In this document: positions 1-28,880 of the stretch, piece by piece
Numbering within the stretch: position 1 is the first letter of the stretch
Layout of the letters: the number at the start of each line of letters is the position of its first letter
IMG/VR virus record: IMGVR_UViG_3300007871_000003
Span: 1-29,027 of that record
Direction: 5' to 3' (one strand)
Length of the DNA stretch: 29,027 nt
Source: a virus
Program-made: the position numbers and the translations under genes
Notes under the pieces: model-generated
Database searches by the model: none
What the model saw: only the letters and a program-made list of their open reading frames with translations
What the model was told of the DNA's origin: nothing

Positions 1-909
1 TGGGGAGATACCGCCTCAGATTTCAATATAGCTGAATCCTACATAGCTGCTGATGAATTCAATAACTTCATAGGCCAAGGTAATACAGACTTCATGTCTA
101 TCTTAGGTGATCTATGGGACTGGGGAGAAGACGTATATGATTATAAGCTTAAAAATTCTAAGTCTGTTTATCTTAATAAGCCTACTGTATCTATTCTTGG
201 CGGGAACACTTCTACTGGTGTTAACATGTTATTCCCTCCTGATGCAATCGGACAAGGATTCTTCTCCAGACTTATCTTCGTACAAGCAGAATCAACAGGC
301 TTTAAAAGGACGTGGATGCCGCTACCAGACGAAGAGGTTGAGGAATCTCTTATAGAGGAACTTAAAGCTATTAAGGAAGTAATGCAAGGAGAGATTAAAC
401 TAACTCCTGAAGCTGATAGACTCTTACATAAGATCTATCATAGCTGGAAACCCTTAGATGATCCACGCTTTGGATCTTATTCTAATCGACGCTTCCCTAT
501 TCTACTTAAACTTCTTATAGTAATTTGTGCTAATAACAAGACACTCTATATAACTCCCAAAGAAGTGATCTATGCTAATACTCTTCTTACATTCACAGAG
601 CGTAATATGCCTGAAGCACTAGGAGAGTTTGGTAAAGGTAAGCACTCAGATGTTACGCATAAGATCATGAAGATGATAGAGCATACTAATAAACCCTTAG
701 AAGCTAGAGATATATGGGGTCAGGTTTACTCTGATCTTGAGAGAAGAGAACAACTCTTTGAGATACTAGGTAATCTAACTATGGCGCAAAAAGTGCAAGT
801 AGTGAATCATGGTTATCTACCTGTTAAAGAGATTATAGAGAATAAGAATACTGAGCTTCTTGATTGGAGCTTATTAACGAAAGAAGAACTAGGAGTGTAT
901 GAGCTATGA
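1..909 (+). CDS. DUF3987-type primase/helicase-like protein, C-terminal part (partial at left edge)
   Basis: The reading frame is open from base 1, so the gene starts left of the window; the first ATG in view (94) is internal. About 302 residues remain. The segment resembles the C-terminal half of DUF3987-type proteins, which in phages and mobile elements sit in replication modules and are related to primase/helicase-like AAA ATPases. Visible are the stretch before residue 94 of the frame with a DEFNNFIGQ-like run, then KPTVSILGGNTSTG and the helix-rich region with GFFSRLIFV, both typical of this family, and a C-terminal helical region that could be a winged-helix-like end. No Walker A motif is in view; it would lie upstream of the window. 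The stop overlaps the next start in an ATGA, so the two genes are translationally coupled. Family assignment is by recognition of motif pattern; the exact biochemical role is inferred. Confidence 0.7.
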   Translation, partial: WGDTASDFNIAESYIAADEFNNFIGQGNTDFMSILGDLWDWGEDVYDYKLKNSKSVYLNKPTVSILGGNTSTGVNMLFPPDAIGQGFFSRLIFVQAESTGFKRTWMPLPDEEVEESLIEELKAIKEVMQGEIKLTPEADRLLHKIYHSWKPLDDPRFGSYSNRRFPILLKLLIVICANNKTLYITPKEVIYANTLLTFTERNMPEALGEFGKGKHSDVTHKIMKMIEHTNKPLEARDIWGQVYSDLERREQLFEILGNLTMAQKVQVVNHGYLPVKEIIENKNTELLDWSLLTKEELGVYEL

Positions 910-1626: not shown

Positions 1627-1980
1627 ATGAGACCAAAAGATAAAACCATCTGGGTAACAGCTACGATAGTTGTAGCACCCACTACTAAGAAAGCTTTCCT
1701 AGCGGCTTTCCATGATTCAGATGGAGAAGAGCTAGGACAGACTTGGTTACCTTACTCACAAGTTACACAAGTAGTAAGAGATTGTGGAGGTTTTACCGTA
1801 GAAGGAGAAGGAAGAGGAGTAGAAGTAACTCTTGAAGTTCCTCTATGGTTAACTGAGACTGAGCGGATGGAACCACTGATAAGAGAACAGCTCTTGGAGA
1901 AGGAAGCTGAGCCTGATGACAGCCCAGAAGGAGAGTATGAGCAGGGTGAGTTAGGCTACGATGATGATATACCATTCTAA
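1627..1980 (+). CDS. Small beta-domain protein ending in an SSB-type acidic tail (YDDDIPF)
   Basis: The 117-residue product has two parts. Residues 1-80 look like a compact beta domain of a kind common in phage replication neighbourhoods, with a central WLPYSQV strand (compare the WIPKS-like motif) and a closing VTLEVPLWL strand. Residues 88-117 are strongly acidic and end in YDDDIPF. That ending matches the conserved tip of bacterial single-stranded-DNA-binding protein, which recruits host replication and repair proteins. The N-terminal domain does not show a recognisable SSB OB-fold sequence, so this may be a divergent SSB or an unrelated domain carrying an SSB-tip mimic. A good ribosome site (GCAGGAACT) precedes the ATG. 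It lies two genes after a zinc-finger protein and close to the DUF3987-like gene, which suits a replication role. Confidence 0.7.
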   Translation: MRPKDKTIWVTATIVVAPTTKKAFLAAFHDSDGEELGQTWLPYSQVTQVVRDCGGFTVEGEGRGVEVTLEVPLWLTETERMEPLIREQLLEKEAEPDDSPEGEYEQGELGYDDDIPF

Positions 1981-2018
1981 CTGATATATAAACTAACAGA
2001 TCTAACAGAGGAACTAAT

Positions 2019-2285
2019 ATGAGAACTGAAAGAAAAGAATCTAAATCACCAACTATCTTCCAACGTATGGCTACAAGAAGAAACTGGCTTCTTAACTTTA
2101 CTCTACAGAAGATTCATATAGAGTATCAACCTGACTTAAAGCTATCTAAGGATACACTAGAGCTAGCACAAGAAATCAATGGACTGATAGATGTGCTTAA
2201 GTCTAGAATAGATAGAGACTGGAAGATTCAAAAGAAACAGATTAAGAAACACATGGCTAAGATAGCCCCACAGAATTCACTGTAA
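2019..2285 (+). CDS. Hypothetical basic 88-aa protein
   Basis: Preceded by GAGGAACTAATATG, nearly the same leader as the SSB-tail gene, which supports the start. The product is basic and predominantly helical, with a Lys/Arg-rich N-terminus (MRTERKESKSP) and a long amphipathic C-terminal helix (residues about 45-80, ending KKQIKKHMAK). This could bind nucleic acid or form a small helical bundle, but no family is recognised. Confidence 0.6.
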   Translation: MRTERKESKSPTIFQRMATRRNWLLNFTLQKIHIEYQPDLKLSKDTLELAQEINGLIDVLKSRIDRDWKIQKKQIKKHMAKIAPQNSL

Positions 2286-2326
2286 CCTATAACCACAACA
2301 AAGTCCCATGCGGCAGGAATAAGAAG

Positions 2327-2854
2327 ATGAATATAGGATATGCAATAGAAGCAGCAAAAGCAGGAGAGAAAGTAGCTAGACAAGGATGGAACGGTAAGAA
2401 CATGTTTATCGTTTATATGTCACCTCTCAATCTACCTCCTTATGATACGCAAGGAACAGAAAGAAAGGTGAATGACAGAACAGCTAAATGGATTGGTGAA
2501 AGTACACCGCTGGAAAGTCTTGGATACTTTGCTATGTTTACAGCTAATAAGAAGTGGCAGCCAGGTTGGCTTGCTAGTCAGTCTGATCTATTAGCTGATG
2601 ATTGGTTCATAGCAGAAGAGGAAGTAGAAGTATTAGAGCTACCTCCTATCCCACAAGCAGCTGTTACTTCCTACAGCAAGAAGGATAAGACTTATATGTA
2701 TCCTTATGAGATAGGTATGTCTATGCAGGGTATCTCACTAGATGAAGGGATTATACCAAGAGAGGGCGGCATGATAGCCTTTGATGACTCTAACGCTAAT
2801 GATAGGTGGTATCTAACACCAGAGTACCTTGAAGTTCACTACAGTAAAGATTAG
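2327..2854 (+). CDS. DUF2829 / Tad2-family protein with C-terminal extension
   Basis: Residues 1-97 match the DUF2829 pattern: a start of the form MNIGYAIEAAKAGEKVAR, then GWNGKNMFI (20-28), and near the domain end GWLASQSDLLADDWFIAE (80-97). DUF2829 includes Tad2, phage proteins that bind and sequester cyclic nucleotide-like signals of Thoeris (and related) immunity. Members are usually about 80-110 residues; this one has 175. The extra part, about 112-175, ends in a strand pattern (GGMIAFDD, then DRWYLTPEYLEVHY) like the short sheet domains often found in phage accessory proteins. It is the last gene of the plus-strand module, just before a terminator. Family assignment is fairly secure; the anti-defence activity is an inference from the family, as not all DUF2829 proteins have been tested. 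The leader GCAGGAATAAG supports the ATG at 2327. Confidence 0.8.
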   Translation: MNIGYAIEAAKAGEKVARQGWNGKNMFIVYMSPLNLPPYDTQGTERKVNDRTAKWIGESTPLESLGYFAMFTANKKWQPGWLASQSDLLADDWFIAEEEVEVLELPPIPQAAVTSYSKKDKTYMYPYEIGMSMQGISLDEGIIPREGGMIAFDDSNANDRWYLTPEYLEVHYSKD

Positions 2855-2877
2855 TTAGTAAAGCTCCTTAAGAAATT

Positions 2878-2924
2878 AAATACCACCTACAGGATATGAT
2901 ATGTATCTCATAGGTGGTATTTTT
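2878..2924 (+). terminator. Intrinsic terminator between convergent operons
   Basis: A 12-bp perfect stem, AAATACCACCTA (2878-2889) with TAGGTGGTATTT (2911-2922), encloses a 21-base loop and runs into TTTT. It follows the Tad2-like gene by 23 bases. The minus-strand late operon ends at 2942, so the hairpin lies between two converging transcription units and probably stops both, though the T-run is better on the plus strand. Confidence 0.85.
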
Positions 2925-2941
2925 ATGCCTTCTATATCCTC

Positions 2942-3139
2942 TTAAGTTGTTTTAAGTTCATATCCAAGTTTAGCAGCAAGCTCACCTAAATCCATACTAG
3001 GAATTTCATGTACCTCACCACTAAAAGTAGTAATTATGAGATTCTTCTCTCCAGGCACTACTGATTCTATACCTTTTGGATTCAACCATATATAGCCCAC
3101 AGTAGTTCTAAGCATCACTAGTATATCGTTCATTGACAT
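2942..3139 (-). CDS. Small hypothetical protein, FlbD-like sheet pattern
   Basis: Last gene of the minus-strand operon; 65 residues, overlapping the end of the secreted Fn3-like gene by 10 bases. The central part, with YIWLNPKGIESVVPG followed by IITTFSGEVHEIP and then a helix starting at SMDLGELAAKLG, resembles the small FlbD-type sheet domain (a residue-binding strand, an asparagine-proline turn, a threonine-rich strand, then a helix). This resemblance is weak and does not imply a flagellar role. An alternative ATG six bases inside would remove only two residues. Function unknown. Confidence 0.6.
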   Translation of the reverse strand: MSMNDILVMLRTTVGYIWLNPKGIESVVPGEKNLIITTFSGEVHEIPSMDLGELAAKLGYELKTT

Positions 3140-3510
3140 ATTACCTGTGGTTCACCTGGAGTTAGATATTCCATACAGAACAGGGGTGTCATGATACTTT
3201 CTATACCGTCAGTATCAACCGTTGTCATTGTATAACAATGCGGCTCAGGTTTAGTTTCATACCAGGCCATATAAGGATTACCTTCTTTAATACCCCATAG
3301 CTCAAACTCTCTGTGAAGAATAAGTCCTTGTTCTGGATCATTATAGTACACCCCAACGTATGCTATCTCCTCTATAAGAAGTGGTGTCCCATCTTCTCTT
3401 TCTGTGGCTGAGATCCATTGGACGCGTACAGTTCTATCTGCATAACTAACTGCTGGATATAATACCGATAATATTACTAGTAATGTAATTGATCTAATTA
3501 GTGAAATCAT
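3130..3510 (-). CDS. Secreted Fn3-like domain protein with signal peptide
   Basis: The 126-residue product begins with a clear Sec signal peptide: Arg6 after MISLI, a hydrophobic core (SITLLVILSVLYPAV) and a probable cleavage after SYA at residue 24. The mature part reads like a single fibronectin-III fold: VRVQWISAT, then EDGTPL, a strand around AYVGVYY, and a late PHCYTMTTVDTDGIES segment typical of Fn3 strands F-G. Three cysteines (in HCYT, FCME and the C-terminal ICQ) could form a disulfide in the periplasm. The gene overlaps the end of the 1706-aa gene by 17 bases and so is made with late virion proteins. It could be a periplasmic exclusion or lysis-related factor or a surface component; function is not established. 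There is no lipobox cysteine at the cleavage site. Confidence 0.75.
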   Translation of the reverse strand: MISLIRSITLLVILSVLYPAVSYADRTVRVQWISATEREDGTPLLIEEIAYVGVYYNDPEQGLILHREFELWGIKEGNPYMAWYETKPEPHCYTMTTVDTDGIESIMTPLFCMEYLTPGEPQVICQ

Positions 3511-6500
3511 TTAATTCGTAACCTCCCATTATAAGTTGCATATTTTTAGAGAAAGGACTGTTCAATGACCTTCTCAGTTCATTAGCTTGACTTGTATTCG
3601 CAGTAGTATACAGTTGCATCATCCAAGAATGAAACTCCTCAGACTTCCCACCTAACGCAGCATACTGAAAAGCAAAATCTTCCACCTGATCTCTAGATGG
3701 CTGTTGACCTGCAATGATAGTAGACTTAATAGTCTCTCCTAAGTTATTTCTCTTCCTTGAATCACTCAAAGCATAAGACTTAATTCTATAAGCTGCATCC
3801 GTAGCTACTGCTTCACCTAGAGGCTTACCGCCCATCATGCGACCCATATTCACTAGACTCAACATATCATTAGAACCTATAACATTACCCCTTTTACTTG
3901 TAGAGTAGGTTGCATTCTCAGGATTAGCTAAACCTTGAAGGGTCTGAGCTATACCAGCTAGAGGTCTTGATATACCATTATGCTCTAACCCCTGTAGGAT
4001 AGCAGTAGGTATATCTCCACCACCCGCAACCTTACGTGACGCATCCCAGATGTTACCAAAGAACTTACCAGCCGCCTGTACAATAGGAATGTTAGCAGGA
4101 TTAACTGGAACTACTGTTATATTCCTAGGATTGATATCACCACGTACGTAGAGATTAGTCTTAAGATCAGGATGTAAGAGCATATTAGATGCAAGTCCAT
4201 ACATTAACCAATCCCCTGCATCCTTACCTGCCGCACCATAAATAGTAGTATAAGCATCTTTGTGTTCATTATTACCAGAAGCTGTACCTATGATATGAGT
4301 ATTGATTGCATTGAAAGCTGGTAGACCATTGAGACCAAAGATAGTTCCCTGTAAGCCTATCAGTGTAGCTGTATCTTTAGCTGTTCCCTCACCTACATGA
4401 CGCAGAAGCTGCTGCATAAGATTGAACTGATAGGTCTGGAAGAGTCCAATACTTTGACCTACAGCTCCTTGGAATATCATAGGTCTCTGAGAAGCTAGAT
4501 AGTTACCTTGTGTTCTATTAACAAAAGTATTGATATAAGCCAGAGCTGAGCGAGAGTCCATTGCTCCATGAGCTACAGCTATATCTGTAATCTGCTTCAT
4601 TGAGTGAGCACTTATGAATCTATTGAATTCTTCAGCTAATCTATTCCCAGTCCAGCGTTCTCCTTTATCAACACCTTTGAGTACGATCTCTCTGGCTTTA
4701 GATAGTTTCGTACTCAACTCAAGAGCTGACTCAGTTCCATTAAGAGTCATGTTATCTATCACACTCTTATACTGATCAGAGATAGTAGTTACAAAGCCAT
4801 GATCCTTAAAGAACTTCATCTCAGCATTATCTCTACCGAATGCCTTATAAGCATTAGCCATTATCTTCTGTGGAGATATGATAGATTCTCCTGTACCAGG
4901 AACCTTTACATCTCTGAGAGCTGCAAGAGCACCTACTGCCTTCTCTCCGCCATCTCTATTAATAGCTCTCTGAATAGATTTCATCTCTGCGCCATAGAGG
5001 ATATTAGATGAGACTGCATTGGTAATAGCATTCATCATGTCTAAGCGGAGAATAGTAGTAGCTAAGATTGCATTAGACTTCTGTACAAAGTTCTGTAATG
5101 CACTCTTAGGAGCAGTATGATTAACAATGAACTCCATCTTAGCATCATATGCTGCTCCCTTATATCCAGACTTAGCAAGCTCTGTATTGATAGCACTCAA
5201 CTCCTCAACACTCTTAGACTTATAGAATGTAGCAGTTATCCTATCATACATATCTGAGACTTTCTTCTCAAGCTGTATATTAGCATTAACCCAGAAAGGA
5301 TAGTCAGCATAGTTCTTAACATCCATAGCTGTACGAATGTAATCCATATAAGGATTTCTAACTACATTCTCAGCGTGCTTAAGAGAAGCTGTACTATTAA
5401 ACTTAGATGTAGAGAGATTAGTGAACTCTCTGCCGCGTTGTCTTAGATACTCAAACTCTTTCTCATAGTTAGCATCTAGCATCTCACGAACTAGAGAAGT
5501 CTCTTGAGTAGAGTGCCAAGCATGAGTATCCTGTACTACCTTCACTGGATCAGTAGCTACGAACATAGGAGATGAGATACCCTTACGAGCCATTGCTGTA
5601 TCTACGTAGTTATCATTAAGAGCACGACCCTTCTCAAATGTACCAAAGGACTTAAAGTAATCTTCTGCATCCTTCTTAGTATATATCTTCCAGTTATCAG
5701 CTTGAAAGATATTACTACCTGGCCGCACAGGAGTACGAACACCTAGTTTACTAATCATAGTCTCAAGCTCAGCTTCACTATTCGCATAGATCATACTACT
5801 ATGACCTGTACCTGTGATAGAGTCATCTGTTACTATAGCAAAGAAAGGTACATCTTTAGGATTAATTGGGATAGGATAGAACTCATCAGCTTCTACTCTA
5901 ATCTCCATACCTTGAGCTGTACGCATCTCATTGGTAGCGTGTACTCTCTTACCATTAGCTAATACATGAGTACGAGCTAGTTCAATTGTCTGTGGATGCC
6001 GCATAGGAATAACATCTGGTGCGCCTTCAAACTTAGTAGGAGGAGGATCAAGACTTATACCTTCTACACCTTCCGCAGCCTGTCTCCTATGAAGAGCTAT
6101 CTCTTTCCTCTCTAGAAAGTTACCTTTAGGAGAGAGTACATACTTCTGTCCACCATAACTACGAATCTTAGCGTGTAAGGTAGACCATTCAATAGCAGCT
6201 TTTTGTGATCCAGCGATACCTACAAGAGATGGATTAAGCACCTCATTCATAGCATCTACTTTCTTACCTTTAATGATAGAAGTAAATCTACCTATAGCTT
6301 CCATATGATTAGCAAGAGAACCATAGTTAGCTGAGGCAGCAGTTAGGAACTTACTTCCTGCACCTAGTGAGTTAGCTAATCCAATAATACCTAGCTGCTC
6401 AGCATCTAACATAACATCTTTAGATATAGGAATCAGCTTATTAAAATCATCTCCAAAGTAATTAGCTGTTACATTCTGTACTCTCTGAGATAGAAGTCTC

Positions 6501-8614
6501 TCTTGCTGCTGTATGATTCCCATACCTTCTAAGAGCATACCGTTCATATCTCTAAAGGCAGCTGTATCGGTGGTAACCTTTAAAGTCTTAGGTTGAAGAT
6601 AGACTGGAGCCTCCTTAAGAAGTTCTTCTGCAGTCTTAGTTTTACCTGCAATCTGATTAACACCCAGACCTACTTGTCTCTCAGCATAATCAGCTGCATA
6701 ACCTTGTAGAGCAAAAACTGAGCGATCATAATCAACAGATCTAATTTCTGCATTAAGCCAACCAGGAGTTACATTTACAGACGCGGCAATCTCTTCATGG
6801 GTGAGAGGTACATCTCCTATTTTCTTATCTGCAATAGTTCTCTTAAGCATCTTACGTGCCACTAGATCTTTCTGCTCTAAGATAAACTTATACAACTCCT
6901 CTTGAGAAGTAAAGCCTAATCTTTCTCCACTTTCTAATTTAACCTTATGATCAATATGAAACTCACGATACATCTTCTCTAAGAGAGGTATATCATTTTC
7001 ATCAATTAGAACACCTATAGGTCTCTTAGGATCTTTAAGCTTAGCCTTAAGATCTGATGCAGATACAAAAGGTTTCTGTTGTAATGCCCAGATATGCCTA
7101 GCCTCATTATTAAGAGTAGAGTTCTTAGTCACATCATAATGAGAACCTGCTGTCTCCCTCTTAAGAGAATCATCAAAGCCTGCAATTCTCATGTTAGGTC
7201 GATCTGCTTTAATAGAGTCAGTATTAAAGTCGTAGCGAGTCTTACCTACAGTGATACCACTCTTACCTATCTTAATAGATTCGCCCACTTTAAGTGTATC
7301 TGACAGAGAAGTATAAATAGGAACTTCAGTTGTTCCTCTACCCATAGTAGCAGCTTCTCCCCATATATTAACATAGGAAGTTTCTACAGTACTCTTAAGA
7401 AGTTCATCAGCGTCAGTAGTTAAACCTTTACCTGCTTGAATTCTCTTAGTGATCTGATTAAGAAGCTTCTCTTCAGCTGTGAAATCTGTTCTACGAGAGA
7501 ACTTCTGTGCACCTAGGTAGTCTTTCCAAGCTTCCTTGCTCCCCTTCCCTGTCATCATCATATAGGCAGCAGCACCTAAATCTTTATCATTGCCTGCAAG
7601 GATGGTAAGATTCTTACGTATCTGGTTATCGTAGAATGCTTTCTGACCCTCAACACTAGCTTCAATAGTTTCTCTTGTTACATTACCTTGAGCTACTAAA
7701 TCATCTACTAATTGAGGAGGGGTATCTATAATCTTGTTAACTTGCTGTAAAGAGAAGGCCACCTTATTAGCAGGTGGTGCCGCCTCATGGAGTTGTAAGA
7801 CTTGGTTGAATCCAGTGGTAGCTAGATCGGCTTCAGCTTTAGCTCCCTTCACTTTGAAAGCACTTCTAACTACGCTTATGCCACCACCTATAGTTCCGAA
7901 GATACCTCCAAACACAGCTATGTTAGTAGTAATATCACCTAAATCTTGATGCTCTAAAACAGGGGAAGCAGATAGAGCAATAGCAGTAGCAGTCTCAAAG
8001 GCCGCCATATCTAATACAGCTGAGCCATAACCAGCAGCCATAGCTTTCATTGTATTAGTATTAGTAATTAGGGAGAGAGAATTAGTATTAGATACTTCTT
8101 TAACAGCCTTATCTAAGTACTGTTGACGCCGCGTAGTAGAAGCAAAACCAAAGCCAGCCTGTAGATTTTTACCTACACGACCTGTCATATTAGCTGTAGC
8201 TAGAGCTTTCTGCCCCATATTCAGAGCTTTAATACCAGCCATACCAGGCACTAGAGATGAGAGTAAGAAGCCCCCTACATCTACTGACTCTGCATGTTCT
8301 TCGTAATACTTACCTAGATCAGCATCTAAGGCTTGTATCACATCACCTGTTTTAGATAGCTCAAAGTCACCCCCTGCATAGTTACCTATTGTAGGCACTA
8401 TGTTATAAATTTGATTAAGACCTGATACAACTGAGGCGGCGAGATATGTAGGAATGTTAGTAGCTGTTTCAATAGCTCCCTCTATGAAGGACTGATTGTT
8501 ATTAGCTACAGAGTGATTATCAGCAGCTACCAGATATGAAGGCATACCTAAAGTACCTGCCTCTACCTCATCCTCTTGTAACTGAGCCATTAAAGCCTCT
8601 CTTGTTACTGACAT
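3494..8614 (-). CDS. Giant internal virion / ejection protein, 1706 aa
   Basis: The largest gene in the window. Its place at the end of the structural operon, after the 758-aa protein, and its size match the large internal proteins that podoviruses inject into the host with their DNA. The N-terminus (residues about 50-250) has several glycine/alanine-rich hydrophobic stretches (GGFLLSSLVPGMAGI, and around 226-250 IAVFGGIFGTIGGGISV) that could insert into membrane. The middle is long and mixed helical. The last third (about 1325-1480) contains FNRFISAHSM, then FVNRTQGNYLASQRP and GLFQTYQFNLMQQLLRHV, a pattern I associate with the large polyvalent protein (LPD38-like) domains of phage giant proteins. 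No lysozyme or transglycosylase active site was recognised. A strong ribosome site (AAAGGAGGC) lies in the end of the preceding gene and its ATG follows that gene's stop by one base. Confidence 0.75.
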   Translation of the reverse strand: MSVTREALMAQLQEDEVEAGTLGMPSYLVAADNHSVANNNQSFIEGAIETATNIPTYLAASVVSGLNQIYNIVPTIGNYAGGDFELSKTGDVIQALDADLGKYYEEHAESVDVGGFLLSSLVPGMAGIKALNMGQKALATANMTGRVGKNLQAGFGFASTTRRQQYLDKAVKEVSNTNSLSLITNTNTMKAMAAGYGSAVLDMAAFETATAIALSASPVLEHQDLGDITTNIAVFGGIFGTIGGGISVVRSAFKVKGAKAEADLATTGFNQVLQLHEAAPPANKVAFSLQQVNKIIDTPPQLVDDLVAQGNVTRETIEASVEGQKAFYDNQIRKNLTILAGNDKDLGAAAYMMMTGKGSKEAWKDYLGAQKFSRRTDFTAEEKLLNQITKRIQAGKGLTTDADELLKSTVETSYVNIWGEAATMGRGTTEVPIYTSLSDTLKVGESIKIGKSGITVGKTRYDFNTDSIKADRPNMRIAGFDDSLKRETAGSHYDVTKNSTLNNEARHIWALQQKPFVSASDLKAKLKDPKRPIGVLIDENDIPLLEKMYREFHIDHKVKLESGERLGFTSQEELYKFILEQKDLVARKMLKRTIADKKIGDVPLTHEEIAASVNVTPGWLNAEIRSVDYDRSVFALQGYAADYAERQVGLGVNQIAGKTKTAEELLKEAPVYLQPKTLKVTTDTAAFRDMNGMLLEGMGIIQQQERLLSQRVQNVTANYFGDDFNKLIPISKDVMLDAEQLGIIGLANSLGAGSKFLTAASANYGSLANHMEAIGRFTSIIKGKKVDAMNEVLNPSLVGIAGSQKAAIEWSTLHAKIRSYGGQKYVLSPKGNFLERKEIALHRRQAAEGVEGISLDPPPTKFEGAPDVIPMRHPQTIELARTHVLANGKRVHATNEMRTAQGMEIRVEADEFYPIPINPKDVPFFAIVTDDSITGTGHSSMIYANSEAELETMISKLGVRTPVRPGSNIFQADNWKIYTKKDAEDYFKSFGTFEKGRALNDNYVDTAMARKGISSPMFVATDPVKVVQDTHAWHSTQETSLVREMLDANYEKEFEYLRQRGREFTNLSTSKFNSTASLKHAENVVRNPYMDYIRTAMDVKNYADYPFWVNANIQLEKKVSDMYDRITATFYKSKSVEELSAINTELAKSGYKGAAYDAKMEFIVNHTAPKSALQNFVQKSNAILATTILRLDMMNAITNAVSSNILYGAEMKSIQRAINRDGGEKAVGALAALRDVKVPGTGESIISPQKIMANAYKAFGRDNAEMKFFKDHGFVTTISDQYKSVIDNMTLNGTESALELSTKLSKAREIVLKGVDKGERWTGNRLAEEFNRFISAHSMKQITDIAVAHGAMDSRSALAYINTFVNRTQGNYLASQRPMIFQGAVGQSIGLFQTYQFNLMQQLLRHVGEGTAKDTATLIGLQGTIFGLNGLPAFNAINTHIIGTASGNNEHKDAYTTIYGAAGKDAGDWLMYGLASNMLLHPDLKTNLYVRGDINPRNITVVPVNPANIPIVQAAGKFFGNIWDASRKVAGGGDIPTAILQGLEHNGISRPLAGIAQTLQGLANPENATYSTSKRGNVIGSNDMLSLVNMGRMMGGKPLGEAVATDAAYRIKSYALSDSRKRNNLGETIKSTIIAGQQPSRDQVEDFAFQYAALGGKSEEFHSWMMQLYTTANTSQANELRRSLNSPFSKNMQLIMGGYELNDFTN

Positions 8615-28178: not shown

Positions 28179-28880
28179 ATGAACACAACAGTAAACTATC
28201 ACATAGCAGCTAATAAGACTATCCTACAGCTTATGCGTAAAGCTAACGAATCAATAAAGTATCCTAAGATAAGACTTAATGGTGGGTATGTATTATCCTT
28301 AGCAGGTAATAAATCTAAGTATAAAGGCTCTATTAATATAACAGATGGCCAACCTTATGGAGCTAATATCTGGTATGGTAGAATCAATACTAATGGTAAA
28401 CTTACTTATCCTAGATTCTTAAGTGAGGATTCTAAAGATCTATTAGAAGATGAGCTTATTGAGTTCTCTAAAGATCCAGCTAAATACGCTACACTCTATG
28501 GTAAACTACATAGCTCTTGTATGTTCTGTGGTAAAGAACTAACTAACCAACAGAGTATAGCTGTAGGATATGGGCCTATATGTGCAGGAAAGTATGGTCT
28601 ACCACATGGTGAGTTATCTAAGGTAGATGCTTATGAAGGTTCTCATGCTCAGATAGATATGTTAGATCTTACAGATCATGAAGCTACTATGAATGATATA
28701 AAACCAGATGAAAGTGAACGTATATCTATGGCTGCTTACTCTGGTATATCTACATGCTGTGAAGAGATGCTTACAGATAAACAGTATGCTGAGTTATATA
28801 AAGAACTAGAAAAGCATACAGATAACGTAGAAGTTAAATATCATATGATGGTCGATGCATTAGTAGAGTATACTCTTTAA
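28179..28880 (+). CDS. DUF6011-domain zinc protein, 233 aa
   Basis: Residues 114-142 contain the DUF6011 zinc motif: CMFCGKELTNQQSIAVGYGP and then ICAGKYGLP (Cys114, Cys117, Cys135, perhaps His143). Phage proteins with this motif usually carry an N-terminal beta domain as here (residues about 28-80, with RLNGGYVLSLAGN, KYKGSINITDG and YGRIN), which may bind nucleic acid or a partner. The C-terminal third is acidic and helical with another CC pair (STCCEEML). Function is not established in the family. In the early module with the peptidase-like gene. Confidence 0.8.
   Translation: MNTTVNYHIAANKTILQLMRKANESIKYPKIRLNGGYVLSLAGNKSKYKGSINITDGQPYGANIWYGRINTNGKLTYPRFLSEDSKDLLEDELIEFSKDPAKYATLYGKLHSSCMFCGKELTNQQSIAVGYGPICAGKYGLPHGELSKVDAYEGSHAQIDMLDLTDHEATMNDIKPDESERISMAAYSGISTCCEEMLTDKQYAELYKELEKHTDNVEVKYHMMVDALVEYTL

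Follow-up and report, generated by a model that had tools for sequence, protein, structure and literature searches.

A Tad2-like phage protein carrying a diverged copy of an unnamed small phage domain

Introduction

Phages counter nucleotide-based immunity with sponge proteins, of which Tad2 is one of the main ones. Sequestering of defence nucleotides is established for other, characterised Tad2 proteins, and we infer it for the protein described here. To our knowledge, the solved members of the family are single small domains. In a 29-kb viral record whose ends are not closed (29,027 nucleotides, called the window), one gene encodes a Tad2-like protein with a long additional C-terminal region. 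This raises the question of what the additional region is, where it came from and whether it takes part in the activity of the Tad2 half. An earlier note on this DNA proposed that a second domain might alter ligand range or oligomer state or add another target. The explanation favoured here, and considered reasonably probable, is that of a phage anti-defence Tad2 sponge whose gene fused with an adjacent accessory gene, adding a second domain.

Gene and domain layout

The gene lies at 2327..2854 on the plus strand and, in agreement with the earlier note, is an open reading frame of 175 aa with an ATG start and no internal stop. It encodes a Tad2-like domain (residues 1-97; 2327..2617, +), a proline/acid-rich linker, EEEVEVLELPPIP, defined from the translation (residues 98-110; 2618..2656, +), and a C-terminal domain (residues 111-175; 2657..2851, +). 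The protein was described as nearly twice the usual length, and it is indeed nearly double the 88-104 aa of most PDB chains matched. A separate strand-rich region had been proposed at ~112-175; the AlphaFold2 model of the full protein contains a separate domain at residues ~111-172 (block pLDDT 76 for 111-120 and 84-95 beyond), which consists of four strands (114-117, 121-126, 149-152 and 160-163) and a helix (165-171). The same layout was obtained when the C-terminal domain was modelled alone (pLDDT ~90).

A codon check revealed no in-frame ATG, GTG or TTG between codons 70 and 124, an interval that includes the linker. The first start codon inside the C-terminal domain is M124, ten residues into the fold. 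Thus, no separate start is apparent for the domain. The two-domain architecture is real and unusual. In the part of the literature that was searched, no description of a Tad2 protein carrying this C-terminal domain was found.

The Tad2-like domain

Residues 1-95 match the Pfam Tad2-like family PF11195 (DUF2829) with an E-value of 1.4e-22 and 80.4 bits (gathering score 25), over model positions 1-72 of 73, which bears out the assignment of the first ~97 residues to DUF2829. In a phmmer search of the PDB every match was a Tad2/AcrIIA7 chain, the best being SptTad2 (8wjd, E 2.9e-17, residues 1-97); further matches were HgmTad2/AcrIIA7 (8kbi, 9kzr), Myroides Tad2 (8v3e/9eib) and SPO1 Tad2 (8sme). 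KVP40-like Vibrio phages match this half of the protein at 60-66% identity. The 11 best Foldseek matches in the PDB were likewise all Tad2/AcrIIA7 chains (best E 1.6e-4), for a model of low confidence in this part. The weakness of the full-length model here (pLDDT 43-77 by block, pTM 0.44) is due to the small number of Tad2 rows in the alignment. MAFFT placed rows of the C-terminal domain family on the Tad2 half in two joint alignments, which were therefore not used for structure prediction.

The gcADPR pocket of Tad2 is built by the beta1-beta2 loop and beta4-alpha3 (PMC12043709). Both pocket-forming segments, QGWNGKxMFI (here QGWNGKNMFI) and GWLASQxDxxAxDW (here GWLASQSDLLADDW), are identical or near-identical to those of SptTad2 and HgmTad2 in the alignment, and their placement on this sequence is our own reading. 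At 97 residues, the domain belongs with SptTad2 and HgmTad2 to the long-insertion type, the SPO1 and Myroides proteins having ~88. The insertion, LPPYDTQGTERKVNDRTAKWIGESTPL, at about residues 36-62, is similar in length to that of HgmTad2 and SptTad2 and different in sequence, which counts against the explanation favoured here. The insertion of HgmTad2/SptTad2-type proteins is a binding site for cyclic dinucleotides (PMC12043709). The insertion sequence seen here recurs in 41 of the 66 distinct Tad2 domains that the fetched loci contain, a frequency biased by the search pattern NDRTAKWI, which falls inside this segment.

The N-terminal domain would be expected to assemble like other Tad2 proteins, presumably as a tetramer. 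It would most likely bind and hold defence nucleotides, with a ligand of the cyclic-ADPR type at the conserved inter-subunit pocket and possibly a second ligand at the long insertion. While the nucleotide is held, Thoeris- or CBASS-type effectors would not be triggered.

Two other functions, both minor rivals, have to be weighed for this half of the protein. The close sequence relationship to 8kbi and 9kzr (E 1.7e-13 and 2.8e-13) would also suit an AcrIIA7-type Cas9 inhibitor in place of a nucleotide sponge. However, structures of AcrIIA7 itself contain bound cADPR and cGG (titles of 8kbj/8kbk), so that the sponge role extends to AcrIIA7, and Cas9 inhibition is considered very unlikely. Some DUF2829 proteins, including one plasmid-encoded relative, bear the name 'MW1434 family type I TA toxin'. 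The NCBIfam search returned no match to an MW1434 model and only an insignificant match to another family, and the gene sits in a phage replication operon; a toxin role is thus highly improbable.

Homology of the C-terminal domain

The origin of the second domain is less apparent from direct searches. Used alone, it had no significant match in Pfam, the PDB, NCBIfam or PHROGs, and Foldseek against the PDB returned nothing with E < 0.7. As a single sequence it also found no match among viral contigs, and a family alignment was needed to find its relatives. A tblastn search of the fetched loci with residues 101-175 matched two kinds of gene, both beside other tad2 genes. One encodes a protein of Tenacibaculum phage Gundel_1; the other is a 67-aa ORF directly upstream of the gene for an IGTK-Tad2 fusion in the L016 group of loci. 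IGTK denotes an unnamed module of ~75 aa (KxIGTKxIxAxPM...GYLVEY...YISWSPxxVFExAY) that precedes Tad2 in L016:4770-5294, L004, L012, L033 and other loci. These fusions are of the phrog_872/phrog_9467 type, and no Pfam model matches the module.

We assign the C-terminal domain, as a diverged copy, to an unnamed phage protein family of ~65 aa (the 'EMRPY/ARNPKNH' domain), which is named Cdom here. The family has the consensus xFKQYRRKxxSEMRPYVxGEDLxxISVSxxD...GDMIARNPKNHxDQWxVAxKYFEDN and the signature 'YKRKGLSEMRPY…GDMIARNPKNHxDQWxVAKKYFEDN'. The assignment is made because sequence, profile and predicted-structure searches agree. With an HMM from which the window sequence had been left out, the window domain reached 29.1 bits and the best of 1,862 scored shuffles 7.7, and hhalign of the single window domain against the family gave a probability of 97%. 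A scan of viral contigs, confirmed with the window domain itself, yielded 125 relatives (best E 2e-10). In addition, a Foldseek search with the domain model against predicted viral structures (BFVD) returned one match below 1e-3, which was again the Gundel_1 protein (E 8.4e-5).

Cdom, Tad2, IGTK, Gp49 and crAss001_48 have similar W...F...Y endings; distant homology among them was considered and rejected, since all hhalign probabilities were about 1% or less.

Divergence of the window copy

The window domain is a strongly diverged homologue and not a typical Cdom member. Identity among the other 75 family rows reaches 90% or more in 23 columns, taken here as near-invariant. The window copy keeps 10 of the 23 and every other row at least 20, a comparison in which conservation is inflated and partly circular at the ARNP and EMR motifs, since most relatives were collected with these patterns. 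The near-invariant polar residues (window numbering) are R118, E123, R125, E131, D142, R152, N153, N156, H157, D159 and N171, of which two, N156 and D159, are kept. R152-N153-P154 has become F-D-D and H157 has become A. E131, D142 and N171 are lost although they lie outside the search patterns. The kept positions belong mainly to the hydrophobic and aromatic core (M149, A151, W161 and Y167, and also M124, P126 and Y127).

The loss of most polar residues makes a second working binding site in the C-terminal domain less likely than the earlier note implied, and the loss of the signature as a whole similarly lowers the likelihood of a conserved second activity. The domain folds in prediction, and the job of typical members is probably either not done or done with other residues. 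It is tentatively possible that the domain is a decaying passenger, a folded appendage left by a stop-loss fusion, with Tad2 doing all the work. Such decay would account for a copy that has lost so many near-invariant and polar residues and kept its core, yet the frame is unbroken and structure prediction still gives a fold at pLDDT ~90. Divergence may also reflect a new target, and the apparent conservation against which the decay is judged is inflated by the motif patterns used to find some of the relatives.

Occurrence of Cdom and its association with tad2

Scans reported up to 371 viral Cdom relatives in one pass, and 22 Cdom loci were found in bacterial and archaeal assemblies, many of them in Bacteroidota according to the record titles. 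Nearly all of the 168 distinct Cdom sequences fetched are stand-alone small genes, and about 160 have no adjacent tad2 gene. Stand-alone Cdom genes have no conserved neighbour, as no neighbour cluster occurred in more than four loci. Among these 168 sequences the order Tad2-Cdom is found fused in the window only, a single metagenomic example, and the reverse fusion, Cdom-Tad2, occurs in L113. Cdom is also fused to crAss001_48 in Gundel_1 (L001/L133/L341) and in L163/L240, and to IGTK and Gp49 in L105. The L105 protein (L105:4407-5213) has 268 aa and three modules, namely IGTK, Phage_gp49_66 (PF13876) and Cdom. In a further set of loci (L157:4007-4531, L169, L213:4001-4597, L234:2980-3501 and L303:1553-2107), the ORF continues beyond Cdom into a second domain (KNVKDIVFxGDGDxFxLISKASSxxEGWMKSTKAM...VQVTTQQ), which is conserved, unnamed and without a match in Pfam.

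About 1.02 Mb of sequence flanking 165 distinct Cdom genes contains five unfused tad2 genes, each sharing its strand with Cdom. Three of them abut Cdom (-6, 4 and 20 nt), and the other two are 521 and 2,774 nt away. L133 (Gundel_1) and L134 have the order of the window, tad2 before Cdom, the two genes being 20 and 4 nt apart, respectively; in L016, Cdom precedes tad2 with a 6-nt overlap, which is the order of the L113 fusion. The tad2 ORF directly upstream of Cdom in L134 (L134:3449-3958) appears by eye to start with a tandem Tad2-like repeat (MNYSEAMQALDLGANVKLPEWVGHWF...REDWAI).

Adjacent tad2 and Cdom genes in both orders, together with fusions in both orders, form the pattern expected from stop loss between neighbouring genes, which may have taken place at least twice. 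The fusion in the window would probably have arisen in this way from adjacent tad2 and Cdom genes, with the C-terminal domain then carried on a short proline/acid linker and displayed once per subunit.

The same pattern bears on whether the C-terminal domain works on Tad2, by forming a lid over the pocket, changing the oligomer state or widening the ligand range. Fusion in both orders and abutting genes in three lineages suggest a functional link. However, the great majority of Cdom sequences do not lie beside tad2, Cdom also occurs in fusions with crAss001_48, IGTK-Gp49 and a further unnamed domain, and the conserved polar residues have been lost in the window copy. An action on Tad2 is therefore considered unlikely, and the earlier suggestion of an altered ligand range or oligomer state sits poorly with a domain that is mostly stand-alone and is also joined to modules other than Tad2. 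Because of this distribution and the lack of a conserved neighbour, Cdom appears to be a mobile accessory of phages and not a partner specific to Tad2. In the favoured explanation of a sponge enlarged by gene fusion, the C-terminal domain would be an add-on and not a part of the Tad2 pocket.

A further reading is that Cdom is itself an anti-defence module, widespread in phages and mixed with Tad2, IGTK, Gp49 and crAss001_48, which would make the window protein a dual inhibitor. This is doubtful; if true, one chain would block nucleotide-signalling defence and a second defence. The analysis is most useful for having brought out the unnamed Cdom family, which repeatedly occurs in contact with tad2. 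The joining of Tad2, at its C-terminus, to a module that is otherwise a separate phage gene, together with the adjacent genes and the reverse fusion, leads to a short list of unnamed domains that accompany a known anti-defence protein, and these are good candidates for testing.

Genomic position

The gene closes a co-directional run, whose first member within the window is a primase gene (1..909, +; phrog_14296, E 3.4e-39) whose 5' end is cut by the contig start, the frame being open to base 1. An intrinsic terminator with a 12-bp stem followed by T5 (2878..2922, +; RNA fold -21.1 kcal/mol, z -4.37) stands between this operon and the convergent late genes. The location at the end of a replication operon just before a terminator, given in the earlier note, is thus borne out. 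The terminator may act in both directions, since its stem is symmetrical. A simple terminator scan missed this hairpin, probably because the outer stem encloses too long an inner stem and loop. The convergent late gene (3494..8614, -) encodes a 1706-aa homologue of a giant structural protein, with tblastn E-values of 4e-31 and 6e-30 to PaMx41/TF17 and 64% identity to the contig L219.

The portal (~29-32% identity) and primase (33-39%) relate the window to Polaromonas phage Tiera, EBPR podovirus 3 and the PaMx41/PaP2/TF17 group, which belongs to the family Fredfastierviridae. By these sequence identities, the phage is a distant relative of PaMx41-type podoviruses. In TF17, the product of the last primase-operon gene, which faces the giant structural gene, matches 8h2j with an E-value of 6.5e-53. 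The structure 8H2J is that of PaP2 Acb2 (PMC11722364). At the acb2 place, PaMx41 has a 36-codon ORF, which is consistent with the premature stop reported in its acb2 (PMC12657218). As the convergent 1706-aa gene is homologous to the giant gene, the Tad2-Cdom gene occupies the acb2 place. The end of the operon had been called a frequent place for anti-defence genes, and the presence of acb2 at the same place in related phages agrees with this.

The closest relative found, L219 (67% identity in the primase), lacks the Tad2-Cdom gene and its small neighbours (window 1627-3510 against L219:9300-9731), and its operon ends at the homologue of window 1627-1980. The small genes absent from L219 are 2019-2285 and 2327-2854 in the operon and 2942-3139 and 3130-3510 on the minus strand. 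A missing segment of this kind is as expected of an accessory insert, and it marks the region between 1627-1980 and the giant gene as a variable accessory spot. The place shared with acb2 marks a small locus where PaMx41-related podoviruses may swap nucleotide sponges. PADLOC returned nothing. Elsewhere in the window, 28179-28880 (+) encodes a 233-aa protein with a match to DUF6011 (PF19474, E 2.5e-12).

Comparison with known systems

The N-terminal 97 residues resemble SptTad2 (8wjd) and HgmTad2/AcrIIA7 (8kbi) over their full length, including WNGKxMFI and GWLASQxDxxAxDW. The window protein differs from both in its insertion, which is of the KVNDRTAKWIGE type, and in 78 additional C-terminal residues that contain a second domain. 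Tad2 proteins with an N-terminal module (phrog_872 and phrog_1048 type, e.g. IGTK-Tad2, of which the fetched loci contain 27 distinct sequences) similarly join Tad2 to a small phage domain. In these, however, the module is N-terminal and of other families, and IGTK has no profile similarity to Cdom.

The Gundel_1 protein (QQV91431.1) has an N-terminal part homologous to the window C-terminal domain in sequence and fold, and its gene lies directly downstream of tad2. In contrast to the window, it is encoded by a separate gene, its polar motif is intact and it is fused to PF21825 (crAss001_48) instead of Tad2. Acb2 of PaMx41-type podoviruses is likewise the product of the last primase-operon gene, facing the giant structural gene, but it bears no sequence relation to the window protein, and no Acb2 chain occurred among the PDB sequence matches of this protein or the best fold matches of its model. 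Acb2 is all-helical (PMC10419184), whereas the protein at the same place in the window combines a Tad2-like domain with a strand-rich one.
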